Below, piece by piece: positions 21,831 to 29,186 of a stretch of DNA of 64,000 nt (position 1 is its first letter; the number at the start of each line of letters is the position of its first letter). Under the pieces are notes generated by a model that was not told where the DNA came from, did no database searches, and was given only the letters and a program-made list of their open reading frames with translations. Source of the stretch: an uncultured Clostridia bacterium (GTDB lineage Bacteria; Bacillota; Clostridia; Oscillospirales; CAG-272); NCBI GenBank assembly GCA_948466345.1, contig CAOKAC010000002.1, positions 186,001-250,000 on the forward strand, read 5' to 3'. The position numbers and the translations under genes are program-made.

Positions 21831-22442
21831 ATGTCCTTTTATCAAAACATTTATAATCTATTAGCCCGACCCCTGCGGACCCTTTTCCGTGTGCAGGTGA
21901 CAGGAACGGAAAACCTTCCACAGGAGCGAGGATGTATTTTATGCGCCAATCACACCAGCCTGCTGGATGTACTCATCATTTCTGCAGGACTGAACCGGCA
22001 GGTGCGGTATATGGCAAAAAAAGAACTGTTTAAAATTCCCGTTCTTGGTTCGCTGATTGCCGCGCTGGGGGCGTATTCCATAGACCGTGGCGGCGCCGAT
22101 GTGGCTTCTATTCGCAAAACGATTCGCTTGTTGGAAGAAGGACAGCTTATTGGCATTTTCCCACAAGGTACTCGTCAGCCAGGTGTGGATCCCAAAACTA
22201 CGGCAGTCAAGCATGGTGTTGGAATGATCGCCTATCACGCCAAATGTGATGTGGTGCCGGTATATATTAAAACAAAGAAAAACAAAGCCCGCTTTTTTCA
22301 TAAAACCCATTTGCTGGTAGGCACACCGATTCCATATGCAGATTTATCCTTTGAAAAGGGCGGGATGCAGGAATATAAAGCCGCCACAGAAAAAATTTTT
22401 AAAGCGGTGTGCGCCCTGGATACCGAGGCGGTAGAGTCATGA
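21831..22442 (+). CDS. plsC: 1-acyl-sn-glycerol-3-phosphate acyltransferase
   Basis: The enzyme adds the second acyl chain to lysophosphatidic acid, giving phosphatidic acid at the inner membrane face. The catalytic NHTSLLD (the NHx4D motif) and FPQGTRQPG motifs are clear in 203 residues. The ATG at 21831 follows GGAGG by 7 bases. The stop overlaps the ispH-rpsA start as ATGA. Confidence 0.93.
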   Translation: MSFYQNIYNLLARPLRTLFRVQVTGTENLPQERGCILCANHTSLLDVLIISAGLNRQVRYMAKKELFKIPVLGSLIAALGAYSIDRGGADVASIRKTIRLLEEGQLIGIFPQGTRQPGVDPKTTAVKHGVGMIAYHAKCDVVPVYIKTKKNKARFFHKTHLLVGTPIPYADLSFEKGGMQEYKAATEKIFKAVCALDTEAVES

Positions 22443-24505
22443 AGATACAAGTCGCAAAGCACGCCGGGTTCTGCTTTGGCGTCCGCCGGGCCACGCAGGT
22501 GGCGGAGGATGCGCTGAAACAGGAAGACGGCGCCATATATACACTTGGGCGGCTCATCCACAACGATGGGTATATAGCCGCACTTCGCCGGTGCGGCATG
22601 GGAGAAATCGGCAGAGAGGATATCCACGATATATGCCGCCGCGCCCGATCTGGTGAAAAGATCACCGTGATTATCCGCGCCCACGGTGAGATGCAGGATA
22701 TTTTATCCCAGCTTCTCACCTGCGCAGCAGAACATAAAAATCTTACCGTGCTGGACTGCACCTGTCCCTATGTTACGAAGGTGCGCAGAATTGCCGCCAA
22801 GTGCAGCGGGGCAAAAAAACTTTTTATTTTAATTGGCGCTGCAGACCATCCTGAAGTGCAGGGAATCATGAGTTGCTGCAGAGGCGAGGGACTGGTTTTT
22901 TCCAGTGCCTCCCTTTTGGAAGAATGGATCTACTCTCCTGGAGCTGAAAAATACAGGGATTTCCAGGTTTGTGTGGCCGCGCAGACAACGCAAAATTTGT
23001 CGGAGTGGAAAAAATGTTTGAAAATTATCAAAAAAGTATATACAAATGCTTTGATTTTTGATACAATATGTAATGTTACGGAAGAAAGGCAGACGGAAGC
23101 CGAGCAGCTTGCCGATTCCTCTGATGCAGTTATCGTCATTGGAAGCCGGGGCAGTTCCAATACGGTCAAGCTTTATGAAATCTGCAAAAAGCGCTGCCAC
23201 GATACTTATCTATGTGAAAATGCAGATTCAATCGGGGATTTGGTCGTTCCCCCCCGCTGTAACATCATATCTATTACTGCCGGCGCCTCGACGCCGTTCA
23301 GTGTAATACAGGAGGTTAAACAAACAATGAGTGAGCAAATGGAAAACTTTGCTGAAATGCTCGAGCAGACCATGAAAACATTGAATCCGGGAGATATTGT
23401 CGTCGGTGTCGTTACGTCCGTATCCCAGAACGAGATCACACTGGATCTGGGTACAAAAACGACCGGCGTGATTGTACATGACAAGCTGACCGACGATCCG
23501 TCCGCAAAACTGGATGAAATGTTCAAAATTGGGGATGAGGTTCGTGCAAAGGTTATTAAAATCAGCGATATCGAGGGCATTGCGACCCTTGATAAATTAA
23601 AAGTGGATTCTGAACAGAACTGGCACGAGATTGTAGCAAAATATGAATCCGGAGAAATCGTTGAAGGAAAAATCGTTGACTGCGTAAAGGGCGGTCTGAT
23701 CATTTCCATTCAATCTGTCCGTGTATTCATCCCTGCTTCCCTTTCCGGTGTTCCCAAAAATGCAGGCCCCGATGCACTGCAGGCACTGGTAGGTACCATG
23801 CAGAAAGTAAAAATTATCGAAATCAAAGAAGATAGAAAGCGCGCATTTGCTTCTATCCGCGCCGTACTGGCTGAAGAAAGACGGGAAAAGGAAGAGGCAT
23901 TCTGGAACCAGGTGGAAGTCGGACAGATTTATGAGGGCCCTGTAAAGAGCCTGACCAGCTATGGTGCATTTGTAGACTTGGGCGGTGTGGACGGCATGGT
24001 ACATACAAGCGAACTGTCCTGGAGACGGATCCGTCACCCTTCTGAAATTGTTTCTCAGGGTGATGTCATTAAAGTGTATGTTAAGGCTCTGGATCGGGAA
24101 AAGGGCAGAATTTCTCTTGGATACAAGACAGAAGACACCGACCCTTGGTTTATCTTCAACCAGAAATACAGTGTGGGCGATACTGCCAGCGTGAAAATTG
24201 TTTCTCTGATGCCCTTTGGTGCATTTGCAGAAGTGGTTCCCGGTGCTGACGGACTGATTCATATCAGCCAGATCGCAGATCACAAAATTGAAACTCCCGC
24301 AGAAGTGCTGAAGATTGGCGATATTGTTGATGCAAAAGTAATTGCGATTGATGACGAAAACCGGAAAATCAGCCTTTCTATGCGTGCGCTCATTGAGGAG
24401 AAAAAAGAAGCGGAAGAACAGGGCAGCGCAGCAGACTTGGAAGAAAGTGCAGTGGTATATTCTACCGACGATCCCCAAAGCTTTGCGGATGTAGACGCTG
24501 AATAA
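22439..24505 (+). CDS. ispH-rpsA: IspH-ribosomal protein S1 fusion
   Basis: Residues 1-295 are 4-hydroxy-3-methylbut-2-enyl diphosphate reductase, the last step of the MEP isoprenoid pathway. The [4Fe-4S] ligands are C12, C109 and C211; AHGE (81-84) and AAQTTQN are also present. Residues about 310-640 carry four S1 RNA-binding repeats (for example GMVHTSELSWRRI and GLIHISQIADHKI), so the S1 part is shorter than the six-repeat E. coli protein. This fusion is known in Clostridia. A strong internal ribosome-binding site and ATG at 23327 suggest separate S1 synthesis too. The full product is 688 residues. Confidence 0.93.
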   Translation: MKIQVAKHAGFCFGVRRATQVAEDALKQEDGAIYTLGRLIHNDGYIAALRRCGMGEIGREDIHDICRRARSGEKITVIIRAHGEMQDILSQLLTCAAEHKNLTVLDCTCPYVTKVRRIAAKCSGAKKLFILIGAADHPEVQGIMSCCRGEGLVFSSASLLEEWIYSPGAEKYRDFQVCVAAQTTQNLSEWKKCLKIIKKVYTNALIFDTICNVTEERQTEAEQLADSSDAVIVIGSRGSSNTVKLYEICKKRCHDTYLCENADSIGDLVVPPRCNIISITAGASTPFSVIQEVKQTMSEQMENFAEMLEQTMKTLNPGDIVVGVVTSVSQNEITLDLGTKTTGVIVHDKLTDDPSAKLDEMFKIGDEVRAKVIKISDIEGIATLDKLKVDSEQNWHEIVAKYESGEIVEGKIVDCVKGGLIISIQSVRVFIPASLSGVPKNAGPDALQALVGTMQKVKIIEIKEDRKRAFASIRAVLAEERREKEEAFWNQVEVGQIYEGPVKSLTSYGAFVDLGGVDGMVHTSELSWRRIRHPSEIVSQGDVIKVYVKALDREKGRISLGYKTEDTDPWFIFNQKYSVGDTASVKIVSLMPFGAFAEVVPGADGLIHISQIADHKIETPAEVLKIGDIVDAKVIAIDDENRKISLSMRALIEEKKEAEEQGSAADLEESAVVYSTDDPQSFADVDAE
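23310..24505 (+). CDS. rpsA: Internal translation start: stand-alone ribosomal protein S1
   Basis: AGGAGGT (23310-23316) stands 11 bases before an in-frame ATG at 23327. The protein from there, MSEQMENFAEML to the end, is 392 residues and holds all four S1 repeats without the IspH part. The N-terminus looks like a natural clostridial S1 start. The cell may thus make abundant free S1 as well as the fusion; or the site may be a relic of two formerly separate genes. This entry spans the ribosome-binding site through the stop. Confidence 0.65.
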
Positions 24506-24604: not shown

Positions 24605-25684
24605 TTACGTTTCTTCCTCGATAAGGAGCGCAGCAAACCCGTCTGTATAGCAAATCGTCCCCTCCCCATCGATCCAGGCAGCTTCCACGTCGTCTAATTC
24701 TTCTATCAATGCTCTGCCCTGATCGTAAGACATATTAAATACAGCTGTGGAAAGGGCATCCGCCATTCCCCCATCCCTGCAGATAACAGACACGGAAACA
24801 AAGTGGTTTTCCGGCCTTAGCGTCTTCGGATGGATAATATGATGATACCGCACCCCATCTACAGTATAATATCGCTGATAGGACCCGCTGGTCACCAGTG
24901 ATAAATCCGTCAAGGCAACACGACAAATAGAGGCATCCTGCGCTCCAAGATCGGGGTTTTGAATACCTGCAGTCCAGGGAGAACCGTCAGCCTTTGTGCC
25001 AATCGTACGCACATTTCCCCCAACGCTGAACGCCAAATGATTCCAACCCATTTCCTGTGCAGCCCCAGCAGCCATTTCTGTGGCATATCCCTTAGCAATC
25101 GAACCCACATCCAGCCGCATCTGCGCATCCGGCAAATACACCGTCCCTGCTTTACGATCAATAACAATGGAGGATATATCCATATGCTGGGCTGCGGCTT
25201 CCAACTCCGCACGCTCCGGCAAAGCCGCGGCCTTTGGATCGTCCGTTCCCGCTTCCCTGTATGTATGCCATACAGAAAGCACACCGCCCATAGCAATATT
25301 GGTCATTCCTTGGGTCAGGCTGTACATTTCAACGCTGTATTCCAGCAGATCAATAATACGTTCATCCACGGATACAGGCCGCATGCCTGCGTTATCGTTT
25401 ACTGTTTTCAAATTGTTGATTCCATCATAATCGTGATAGATATCATATAGCTGGTGATATTGCTCTAAAATCTGCAGAAGCTGATCCGCTTTTTTATCAA
25501 AGGCTTCTTTAGACACATCAAATCCAGTAAGTACTGTTACCGTATCAAATAAATCAAAAGAAGTGCGGGAATACCGATTCAGCTCCGCATCCTTTCCGCC
25601 GGCGGTATGGCTGCTGCAGCCAAACAAAGCAAATAGCAGCAGTACCAGCGTGGTTAGCAGAGCGATACGTTTTCTTATTTGCAT
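24605..25684 (-). CDS. apbE: FAD:protein FMN transferase (ApbE), lipoprotein
   Basis: ApbE moves FMN from FAD onto a Thr or Ser of target proteins outside the membrane. The 359-residue protein has a lipobox (LLFALFGC), the RLDVGSIAKGYATE motif, the SVGGNVRTIG motif, and the conserved HHIIHPKT and DALSTAVFNM segments. The start at 25684 follows GGGGAAAGG. It lies 89 bases downstream of the tandem lipoprotein gene, with a hairpin between them. That neighbour, with two DLYAGCT sites, is its likely partner. Confidence 0.93.
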   Translation of the reverse strand: MQIRKRIALLTTLVLLLFALFGCSSHTAGGKDAELNRYSRTSFDLFDTVTVLTGFDVSKEAFDKKADQLLQILEQYHQLYDIYHDYDGINNLKTVNDNAGMRPVSVDERIIDLLEYSVEMYSLTQGMTNIAMGGVLSVWHTYREAGTDDPKAAALPERAELEAAAQHMDISSIVIDRKAGTVYLPDAQMRLDVGSIAKGYATEMAAGAAQEMGWNHLAFSVGGNVRTIGTKADGSPWTAGIQNPDLGAQDASICRVALTDLSLVTSGSYQRYYTVDGVRYHHIIHPKTLRPENHFVSVSVICRDGGMADALSTAVFNMSYDQGRALIEELDDVEAAWIDGEGTICYTDGFAALLIEEET

Positions 25685-25725
25685 AGCGTACCTTTCCCCG
25701 TCGTTTCAATGTCCTGTTAAAATGC

Positions 25726-25753
25726 AGGGATCCTGCACAACTGCAGGATCCCT
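25726..25753 (-). terminator. 12-bp hairpin between the tandem lipoprotein gene and apbE
   Basis: AGGGATCCTGCA (25726-25737) pairs with TGCAGGATCCCT (25742-25753); on the minus strand GCATTTTAAC follows. It may be a partial terminator or mRNA stabiliser that raises lipoprotein output over apbE. Confidence 0.65.
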
Positions 25754-25773
25754 ACCTATTATCTTATCGTCAC

Positions 25774-26835
25774 TTATTTTTCCAGTGCCTTTTCCAATGC
25801 AGCAATCCATTTGTCAATGCCAACGGTACATCCTGCATAAAGATCCGCGTCCTTAGCAACCATCTTTCCGCTGTCGTTTTGCTGGGTTTCAATATCAGAA
25901 GCCTCATCCGGCGTTTTGCCGACAACATAGTCTGCAAAAGCAGCCGCCTGCTCGTACCATTCCTTACCAATGCCGGAGACGTCTTTCATACCATAGCCTT
26001 CCTTTACTTCCCGCTTGGAACCACTAAACTTGACCTCTCCAATCACGCCGTCCGCATCAAAGGCAATTTTGGGCTCGATAACATCCACACAGCAGGCCAA
26101 AACTCTGCCGTCGTCCTCTACTACAGCGGTAAAGGTTGTGTACATAGCCGCCAGCCCGTCTGCCTCGTCAGAAGCATCCTTGGAAGAAGCATCGTCCGTT
26201 ACAGCTGCAAACTGCAGTTTCGGATTGCTGGTAGACTGGAAAGCGTATGCCTGATCGTCCTTGCAAGCCTTTTCCACTGCCTGGATCATCTCCGTTACAC
26301 CAATTGTACAGCCGGCATACAAATCTTCATCCGCAGCCACTTGAGTGCCAGCGTCATTTGCTTCCGTTTTAATAGCGGAAACTTCGTCGCCGGTCATCCC
26401 TTTTACATATCCGGCAAAAAAGTCTGCCTGTTCGTTCCATTCCTTACCAATGCCGGAAACATCCTTCATGTTGTAGTCAGCACCCAACTCCTGCTTGGTC
26501 CGATAGGTTTGTCCCTTCTCAGCGACTCCGTCTGCCACAGACATTTTGTTCTGCACTGTATCGATGTAGCAGTCCACGATTTTACCGCTATCGTCTGTAA
26601 TAACAGCCGCAATGGTTGCTTCCACCTGTGCGGTGCCATCCTTTGACTTTTCGGTGTCTACCTGCACGCCCATACCCAGCTTGTATGCGCCGCTGTCTCC
26701 TGCCGTGTTATCCGTGACTTTTGCGGTATCGTCCGCAGCAGAGGTGTCTTTGTCCTCCCCATTTTTGTCGCTGCAGCCGGCAAATAAAGCAGCGGTTAGC
26801 AGCAAAACCAAAAATACTGAAACAAATTTTTTCAT
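25774..26835 (-). CDS. Tandem-repeat lipoprotein, possible FMN-bearing electron-transfer protein
   Basis: This 353-residue lipoprotein (LLLTAALFAGC, C21) holds two homologous repeats, about 51-191 and 205-353. Each has an internal KDVSGIGKEW-x-EQA segment and ends with DLYAGCT (171-177 and 331-337) followed by a short helix. DLYAGCT is close to the ApbE target pattern DxxSGAT, with the acceptor Thr at 177 and 337 conserved. The layout recalls Listeria PplA, a lipoprotein with two covalently bound FMNs used in extracellular electron transfer. No ndh2, eetA or eetB gene is in the window. The ATG at 26835 follows AGGAGG. Function is inferred, not shown. Confidence 0.7.
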   Translation of the reverse strand: MKKFVSVFLVLLLTAALFAGCSDKNGEDKDTSAADDTAKVTDNTAGDSGAYKLGMGVQVDTEKSKDGTAQVEATIAAVITDDSGKIVDCYIDTVQNKMSVADGVAEKGQTYRTKQELGADYNMKDVSGIGKEWNEQADFFAGYVKGMTGDEVSAIKTEANDAGTQVAADEDLYAGCTIGVTEMIQAVEKACKDDQAYAFQSTSNPKLQFAAVTDDASSKDASDEADGLAAMYTTFTAVVEDDGRVLACCVDVIEPKIAFDADGVIGEVKFSGSKREVKEGYGMKDVSGIGKEWYEQAAAFADYVVGKTPDEASDIETQQNDSGKMVAKDADLYAGCTVGIDKWIAALEKALEK

Positions 26836-26929: not shown

Positions 26930-29146
26930 CTACTTTTGTAGAATCATAAATTGTAGCCCCAGTCGTTCTATCTCTTCCAAAATCGGTGCGCCTTCTTCCA
27001 CACAAAGCGTGGTCGTTCCTTCTACGGAGTCAGCAGCTATTTGGGTGATTCCCATAGGAAGCGTCAGCCGTGCAAGACTGGCGCAGCCTGCAAACACTTT
27101 GCTATCAATAGCAGATAGTGTGTGCGGCAACTGTACATTCTCCAATGCAGCACATCCCTCAAATGCACCATAGCCCAGTTCTGCCAGCCCTTCTCCAAGG
27201 GTTATAGACTGCAAAGAATCACAATTTGCAAACGCATACATACCAATCAATGCGGCCGCGCCTGTATGAATGCTTTTGAGCGCGCACCCTTGAAAAGCGC
27301 CCGCTTCAATCTTATTGACCTTTGCAGGCACAGTATAATTTTGATTTTGCAGCCCACTGGGATAAAGGAGCAAGGTCTCTCCGTCTGCAGAAAACAATAC
27401 GCCGCTGCGCACGGAATATAAGGAGTCATAGCCCGATGTTCGGATATCCATCAAAGCAGTACAGCCAGCAAACATCCCCGCCGATATCTGAGCAGATGCA
27501 AACAAACCCAACGACTGCAGCCGCTCCATATTTGCAAAGGCGCCGTCTCCTATAAAAGCAATACTTTTTGGAATATCTAAATACTGTACGGCACTGCAGC
27601 CCAAGAAAGTATTTTCTCCGATAGACTGCAAAGAGGAGGGCAGCGTTATTTTTTCCAGAGAAGTACAGCCGGCAAAAGCGCTGTCCCCAACGGACAGGAC
27701 GCCATACGGAATATTTGCATGCAAAAGCCCTGTGCAGCCCTGAAAAGCGCCATCACCCACAGATTGTATTCCTTCCGGGATGGATACATCTGTTAGCCCT
27801 GTACAGCCACTAAAAAAATTTGCGGGAATAGATACGGCGTCCGCTGGAAGCGTATATTCCACAAGAGCGGCGCAGTCTGCAAATACCCCTTTACCAAGGG
27901 TTTCCGTATTGCTTGGTATATTCGCCTGGGTAAGTGTGCTGCAGCCAGCATATGCCTCGTCTCCAATATGCAGTATTTGACTGCTGATGCCAGTGCTGTC
28001 AAGGGCAGTACAACCAGCAAACAAGCGCGGAGGAATTGTCGACACACCTTTCGGCAGGGGAGGAAATTGCAGGGAAACGCAATTCAAGAAAACACCTTCC
28101 GAAAGAGTGGTGCCATCGTTTTCGTATGTCACCTCTGTCAAAGATGCACACCCGACGAACAGCTCTTTTCCAAGGGTAAGCGTTTTTCCGCCAAAAGCAG
28201 CGCGCTCCAATCCAGTACAGTCGGCAAACGCCCGCTCTCCCACACTTAGGCAATTTATTTCTATTTCCGTAACAGAAGTGCAGCCCTGAAAAGCGCCCTC
28301 TCCAATGGAACCTGCATCGGAAATGACAATTTGGGTAAGAGCAGCGCAATTTTCAAAGGCGCTTTGTCCGACTTTAGACACAGCGGCGGAAAGGGTAAGG
28401 TCCCCCCGTACAGCGCCGCAATTCTGAAAAGCGCAGGCGCCAATGGATAGCACATTCTCTCCAAAGGGAAAATCGGTAAGCGCCGTACAATCCTGGAAAG
28501 CATATGCTCCGATGTGAACGAGTCCTTCTGCCGCGGCAGCATCCGTAAGAGATACACATCCGTCAAATGCTCCGTAGGATATCTCCTGTACGCCGCCCAA
28601 ATCAATTCGGGTGAGACCGGTGCAGCCCTCAAAGGCACGTACGCCGATCAAAGGCACATTCCCGCCTACCGTCAGTTCCGTAATTTCCGTCCTTTGGGCA
28701 AATCCCTCATCCGCAATACCCGCAACAGCTTTTCCATCAAAGGTATCCGGAATGATGATAGACTGCGGAACATCGCCTGTATAGTCCGCATTATACGAGA
28801 GCATCCCGTCTGAAAATGAAAGCCAAGGGGCCTCTTTTCCCGTCAGCGCAACGGTTTGATCCGCCGCTTTTTCACCGGAAAATAAATTCCCAAACCGCAG
28901 GGACAATGCAGCGGCTCCCGCCAGTACAAACAAAACGCATCCGACAATCAACCAAAGCTGACGTCTAGCAGCCCGGCGTACCAGATGATCTGTCTGACAC
29001 AGGCCGGCGGTGTTCTGCCCGAACTCTCTTTTTTCCTCAGTAGGATCTCCCTGTGCTTTTTCCATCCGGGCCTGGAGCGCAGCGGCATCCAAATCCTTCA
29101 GGGGGCCTGGAACTTCCCTTTCTTCTCCATTTGTGTGTTGTTCCAT
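26930..29146 (-). CDS. Membrane-anchored BspA-type leucine-rich-repeat protein
   Basis: The 738-residue protein begins with a charged cytoplasmic tail (1-62), one membrane segment (63-83, QLWLIVGCVLFVLAGAAA), then about 25 repeats of roughly 23 residues with the consensus I-x-x-x-AF-x-GC-x-x-L-x-x-x-x-x-P. This is the LRR_5/BspA type, usually on the cell surface and linked to adhesion. The repeats are interrupted near 540-580 by YSVRSGVLFSADGETLLLYP, a known break in such proteins. There is no cleavable signal peptide. The ATG at 29146 follows AAGGAG; a GTG 9 bases earlier is less likely. Ligands are unknown. Confidence 0.85.
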   Translation of the reverse strand: MEQHTNGEEREVPGPLKDLDAAALQARMEKAQGDPTEEKREFGQNTAGLCQTDHLVRRAARRQLWLIVGCVLFVLAGAAALSLRFGNLFSGEKAADQTVALTGKEAPWLSFSDGMLSYNADYTGDVPQSIIIPDTFDGKAVAGIADEGFAQRTEITELTVGGNVPLIGVRAFEGCTGLTRIDLGGVQEISYGAFDGCVSLTDAAAAEGLVHIGAYAFQDCTALTDFPFGENVLSIGACAFQNCGAVRGDLTLSAAVSKVGQSAFENCAALTQIVISDAGSIGEGAFQGCTSVTEIEINCLSVGERAFADCTGLERAAFGGKTLTLGKELFVGCASLTEVTYENDGTTLSEGVFLNCVSLQFPPLPKGVSTIPPRLFAGCTALDSTGISSQILHIGDEAYAGCSTLTQANIPSNTETLGKGVFADCAALVEYTLPADAVSIPANFFSGCTGLTDVSIPEGIQSVGDGAFQGCTGLLHANIPYGVLSVGDSAFAGCTSLEKITLPSSLQSIGENTFLGCSAVQYLDIPKSIAFIGDGAFANMERLQSLGLFASAQISAGMFAGCTALMDIRTSGYDSLYSVRSGVLFSADGETLLLYPSGLQNQNYTVPAKVNKIEAGAFQGCALKSIHTGAAALIGMYAFANCDSLQSITLGEGLAELGYGAFEGCAALENVQLPHTLSAIDSKVFAGCASLARLTLPMGITQIAADSVEGTTTLCVEEGAPILEEIERLGLQFMILQK

Positions 29147-29186
29147 GGGAAGCACTCCTTTCCAAGCAGAAATCCTTCTTATGTAT

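Follow-up and report, generated by a model that had tools for sequence, protein, structure and literature searches.

The two genes at positions 24605-26835 of the window, which is the whole stretch of 64,000 nucleotides that was analysed, are best read as encoding a surface electron carrier and its loading enzyme. The lipoprotein would be a divergent PplA-type protein of two FMN_bind-derived domains, and it is probably flavinylated at both T177 and T337 by the neighbouring ApbE, as judged from sequence comparisons. The reading as a divergent PplA-type carrier is based on homology, conservation of the acceptor residues, adjacency of apbE, the occurrence of relatives in the place of PplA and published mutagenesis.

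In the proposed mechanism ApbE would split FAD outside the membrane and link FMN to T177 and T337 by a phosphoester bond, and would recognise D-L-x-[AS]-[GS]-[CV]-[TS] in place of D-x-x-[ST]-G-A-[ST]. The anchored two-flavin lipoprotein would carry electrons away from the membrane to acceptors outside the cell, for example ferric iron or soluble flavins. The donor would be the Ndh2/demethylmenaquinone module of the extracellular electron transfer (EET) type in many relatives, and likely Rnf, through the flavins of RnfG/RnfD, in the genome of the window.

The lipoprotein and apbE genes

Both genes were confirmed on the minus strand, and the start and end given in the earlier reading fall within them. 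The features are as follows.

25774-26835, minus strand: lipoprotein gene, 353 amino acids, tandem FMN_bind-like domains (ATG at 26835, stop at 25774-25776)
26770-26772, minus strand: lipobox cysteine C22 (LFAGC), predicted lipid anchor, from the lipobox pattern
26248-26706, minus strand: domain 1, residues 44-196, 48% identity with domain 2; single-domain model with pLDDT 94.2
26305-26325, minus strand: putative variant flavinylation motif 1, D171-L-Y-A-G-C-T177; Thr/Ser in 98/98 relatives; aligned with DAISGAT of 2kzx
25777-26247, minus strand: domain 2, residues 197-353, from the alignment of the two halves
25825-25845, minus strand: putative variant flavinylation motif 2, D331-L-Y-A-G-C-T337; Thr/Ser in 98/98 relatives
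25724-25755, minus strand: hairpin with a 14 bp stem and a 4 nt loop, followed by TTTT, between the lipoprotein stop and the apbE start
24605-25684, minus strand: apbE, FAD:protein FMN transferase, 359 amino acids, itself a predicted lipoprotein (LFGC); PF02424 E 8e-66

An earlier, sequence-only reading had described a tandemly duplicated lipoprotein with DLYAGCT in both halves, next to the gene for an ApbE lipoprotein, and this description stands. The two halves are 48% identical when aligned with each other (E 2e-37), and the motifs are found at residues 171-177 and 331-337. They differ from D-x-x-[ST]-G-A-[ST] in the manner claimed, by Ser to Ala and Ala to Cys with the Thr kept. A degenerate DNA pattern for DLYAGCT matched twice in the window, compared with 0 matches expected in shuffles. 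The ApbE reaches 222.7 bits against PF02424 (cut-off 25.6) and keeps the catalytic motifs of the FmnB type, with TSG for the Ser, HHII for the His and ADALST for the metal Asp; the FmnB motifs used for comparison are described in PMC8906456. Its signal sequence with lipobox predicts an extracytosolic location.

The apbE gene starts 89 bp downstream of the lipoprotein gene on the same strand. The hairpin between them has a fold of -28 kcal/mol (z -5.1), and hairpins of differing sequence are found at the equivalent position in three relatives of the same genus (L002, L003 and L006). It is possibly an attenuator, which may lower the expression of apbE relative to that of its substrate. Directly upstream of the lipoprotein gene, at 26930-29155 on the minus strand, is a gene for a BspA-type LRR_5 protein that has a single membrane segment at its N-terminus, and a BspA-type LRR_5 gene is likewise found upstream of the lipoprotein gene in the same-genus relatives L002-L007.

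Homology to FMN_bind proteins

No Pfam or NCBIfam family was found for the lipoprotein in profile searches, and the search with PF04205 that the sequence-only reading had suggested gave no match even at E 1. Nothing significant was obtained when the single protein was searched directly against PDB with phmmer. Among 52 diverse family members none reached the PF04205 cut-off, and NCBIfam holds no family for them; the best-scoring member of one family set (A2) had E 0.0025 and 18.9 bits against PF04205, below the cut-off of 22.

A profile of the family matches PDB entry 2kzx (E 5e-9), with DLxAGCTI paired with DAISGATI, and a second family alignment gave E 3e-7 against the same entry. The 2kzx fragment itself exceeds the PF04205 cut-off (25.6 vs 22 bits). 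The multiple alignment shows a gradation from the window family via 2kzx to canonical PplA-type halves. Against standalone FMN_bind (FMN_bind1) domains hhalign gave a weak result (probability 3%, E 0.013) in which the motifs were nevertheless paired.

The full-length two-domain AlphaFold2 model is confident, with a mean pLDDT of 90.5 and a pTM of 0.85. Foldseek related this model to the flavinylated FMN-bind1 protein 3o6u with probability 0.90, but with E 0.1 and TM 0.53, and 3o6u was absent from the top 50 matches of the single-domain model. The family is thus tied to FMN_bind firmly by sequence and at most moderately by structure, and its descent from known electron carriers with covalent flavin is almost certain.

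The single-domain model also gave Foldseek matches to IscU/ISCU2 with probability 0.87-0.99 and TM below 0.46. A distant fold resemblance of the modelled domain to IscU is possible; the TM-scores are low and the matches were set aside as evidence of function.

The family is widespread and unnamed, and is common in gut and environmental Clostridia. A search of 38 genomes of the order found homologues in 15/17 genomes of the genus, counting that of the window, and in two further genomes. When named genomes were scanned, at least 554 related stretches were obtained, of which 79 loci were retained, all from Clostridia and related Bacillota. The mode of anchoring varies while the putative flavin sites are retained, since an N-terminal membrane anchor replaces the lipobox Cys in four relatives of the same genus (L009, L011, L014 and L015) in which both sites are kept. 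A single-domain distant relative (L143, 2589-3152, minus strand) carries DTVTGST, another variant of the site, with no apbE in the 6 kb around it.

Conservation of the putative acceptor site

The acceptor is Thr or Ser at 196/196 sites in the alignment of 98 members, with Thr in 85 and Ser in 13 at the T177 column and Thr in 83 and Ser in 15 at the T337 column. No other column of the alignment is confined to Ser and Thr, and both Thr are invariant in the 18 aligned proteins from the order-level search. Exclusive Thr/Ser is the signature that would be expected of a residue modified at its hydroxyl.

The strict [ST]GA[ST] is absent from the lipoprotein, which has AGCT, and most of the family has [AS][GS][CV][TS]. 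The residue before the acceptor is Cys or Val (one Ile) and never Ala in the 98 members, the second residue before it is Ser or Gly in most, and the Asp of the motif is retained in about three quarters. Most relatives carry DLx[AS]SV[TS] (V-type), and Cys176 and Cys336 are nearly invariant within the genus. The sequence-only reading had suggested that the added Cys could matter. This suggestion was not borne out; Val alternates with Cys across the family, the nearby Cys89 does not covary with the position, and a special role of the motif Cys was rejected.

The mutagenesis of Bertsova et al., as summarised in PMC12052999, showed that a change of the Thr to Ala abolishes flavinylation, that a change of the motif Asp to Ala has a minor effect, and that single Gly to Ala and Ala to Val changes leave about 50% flavinylation; Ser to Ala at the fourth motif position is not reported in that summary. 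The variation in the family falls mostly on the positions tolerant in these experiments, a tolerance that was measured with single substitutions and a different ApbE, while the window motif changes positions four (Ser to Ala) and six (Ala to Cys) together.

Gene neighbourhoods in relatives

The apbE gene adjoins the lipoprotein gene in 66 of the 74 retained loci whose downstream flank spans 1.2 kb or more, in nearly every case immediately after it and in the same orientation, and 8 of the 74 have no apbE nearby; the 79 loci were selected by their similarity to the window family and are not an unbiased sample. The unbiased counterpart was a set of 149 genomes spread evenly over the phylum. In this set 13 genomes have a member of full or nearly full length, each of the 13 also encodes an ApbE, and apbE adjoins the lipoprotein gene in 10 of the 11 carriers where the contig permits a decision. 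The sequence-only reading had raised homologues that consistently lack both the Thr and a nearby apbE; the opposite was found.

Many of the V-type loci have, by Pfam identities, the order Ndh2, polyprenyl synthase, UbiA, lipoprotein, apbE, Hpre_diP_synt_I and NusG_II. This order matches the published EET gene set of Listeria, with the family lipoprotein in the place of PplA, and such a full locus is also found in the order to which the window belongs (L016/L140). In two loci (L144 and L145) the corresponding slot, flanked by the genes for polyprenyl synthase and UbiA, is taken by a 273 amino acid lipoprotein that has two sites of the SGAT type and in L144 matches FMN_bind, which shows that canonical and variant proteins hold equivalent places. 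The resemblance to PplA that the sequence-only reading had noticed is strengthened by these loci. Its observation that the other EET genes are missing also agrees with the locus in the window, where Ndh2, DmkA/DmkB and EetA/EetB-type genes are absent.

EET genes were found in 0/30 C-type and 31/37 V-type relatives (Fisher 2e-13) and rnf neighbours in 12/34 C-type relatives versus 0/46, but these contrasts are differences between clades and not independent evidence, since the tree has only about three changes between the Cys and Val types. With independent pairs p is 0.5, and the contrast is not taken as evidence that the motif Cys causes or marks the loss of EET genes.

Electron-transfer genes of the genome

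The genome of the window is 97.6% complete and no EET-type Ndh2 was found in it. It has two rnf clusters (L029 and L030), both with an RnfG carrying the canonical SGAT. Because EET-type Ndh2 is missing and two Rnf complexes are present, Rnf is the likely electron source for the lipoprotein, as judged from gene content. Directly behind rnfB of the second cluster are NusG_II and Hpre_diP_synt_I. The RnfG of this cluster (L030, 3932-5197, outside the window) has two FMN_bind domains, the first with DVHAGVT and the second with the canonical SGAT.

The census of ApbE in the genome found intact catalytic motifs only in the window ApbE. A second ApbE-like gene (L031, 3101-4138, beside miaB, outside the window) lacks both the HHII block and the metal Asp and has the substitutions GGN to GDS, AKG to GNG and DALST to NALAY; it is probably an inactive paralogue. 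The window ApbE is therefore probably the only active one of the genome, in which case it would have to serve both the RnfG proteins (SGAT) and the lipoprotein (AGCT).

Alternative explanations

An alternative is that the FMN_bind-type fold was kept while the covalent flavin was lost, so that the protein would bind FMN/FAD non-covalently, bind quinone or act as a structural partner, with the Thr/Ser serving in helix capping. The canonical motif is absent in every member seen, Ala is never found before the acceptor and PF04205 is not reached, all of which would fit such a loss, and PMC11334425 shows that flavinylated proteins can be closely related to flavoproteins that bind their flavin non-covalently. 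Pure helix capping would however permit Asp, Asn and Gly, which occupy none of the 196 sites, and apbE remains adjacent even in genomes with another ApbE. Loss of the covalent flavin is accordingly considered unlikely. A redox or metal centre at the motif cysteine, by IscU-like or disulfide chemistry and with flavin in a secondary role, is very improbable; it would agree with the near invariance of Cys176 and Cys336 in the genus and with the high Foldseek probabilities for IscU/ISCU2, but the TM-scores stay below 0.46, Val replaces Cys in about half of the family and Cys89 shows no covariation.

The apbE could also serve only the two Rnf complexes, through the SGAT of RnfG, with the lipoprotein as an unrelated passenger. 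That the window ApbE is the only intact one in a genome where both RnfG carry the canonical motif would be expected under such an arrangement, as would the 12 relatives that lie beside rnf operons. It is nevertheless improbable, even more so than loss of the covalent flavin, since the pair of lipoprotein and apbE is conserved across Clostridia whether or not rnf genes are close by, and several genomes (for example G053, G056, G070, G105 and G180) have a second, higher-scoring ApbE elsewhere in addition to the one adjacent to the lipoprotein. The homology to FMN_bind proteins also makes a passenger role unlikely. A PplA-type carrier flavinylated at both Thr remains the preferred reading. A bolder extension of it, in which a Clostridia-wide lipoprotein family would have its own ApbE recognition code, D-L-x-[AS]-[GS]-[CV]-[TS], and EET in the branch of the window would be driven by Rnf in place of Ndh2, is put forward tentatively and is rather doubtful as a whole.

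Comparison with known systems

PplA is the flavin-based EET lipoprotein of Listeria with FMN at T143 and T265 (PMC8906456), and its cAD1/Cad orthologues are described in PMC7074142. Like PplA, the window protein is a lipoprotein whose two homologous halves each have a single acceptor Thr, encoded beside apbE/fmnB, and its relatives are found at the equivalent position of the Ndh2/DmkA/DmkB/EetA/EetB-type locus. Unlike PplA, its sites are 160 residues apart (122 in PplA), its family has [AS][GS][CV][TS] rather than SGAT with an FMN_bind domain that Pfam does not recognise, and the window copy has no adjacent EET genes in a genome without EET-type Ndh2. The lipoprotein would thus work like PplA, yet it is not classed as PF04205 or as canonical PplA because of its Pfam score, the missing [ST]GA[ST] and the missing local EET genes.

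The FMN-bind2 proteins are described in PMC11334425 as having domains of about 160 amino acids, often in even numbers, that form a pseudo-symmetric two-flavin unit; no C/V motif is mentioned in the sections of that paper used for the comparison. The window lipoprotein likewise has two domains of about 160 amino acids with sites 160 residues apart, and a full-length model with the pTM given above. The window family may be the same as FMN-bind2 or its sister, a comparison made by size and copy number only. With FMN_bind/FMN-bind1 (PF04205; PDB 3o6u and 2kzx) it shares profile homology to 2kzx, in which the motif and the following helix are aligned, but it differs in falling below the Pfam cut-off, in its longer domain and in lacking [ST]GA[ST]. 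The RnfG proteins of the genome are similarly extracytosolic and of FMN_bind type, and the N-terminal domain of the second has the similar DVHAGVT, whereas they are Rnf subunits with the canonical SGAT that are neither lipoproteins nor encoded beside apbE.

Flavinylated electron carriers are found through searches for FMN_bind and [ST]GA[ST]. The window family fails both searches though it is often found in the carrier slot of an EET locus, and no description of the D-L-x-[AS]-[GS]-[CV]-[TS] motif family was found in a search of the literature. It is a candidate substrate for some of the 670 genomes with an ApbE but no known substrate (PMC8238504). Confirmation of the flavinylation would broaden the substrate rule of ApbE, and flavin-based extracellular electron transfer could then be predicted for many more bacteria.

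On the other side of apbE, at 22409-24505 on the plus strand of the window, the sequence looks like that of a fusion between an IspH/LytB-type protein and ribosomal S1-like repeats.
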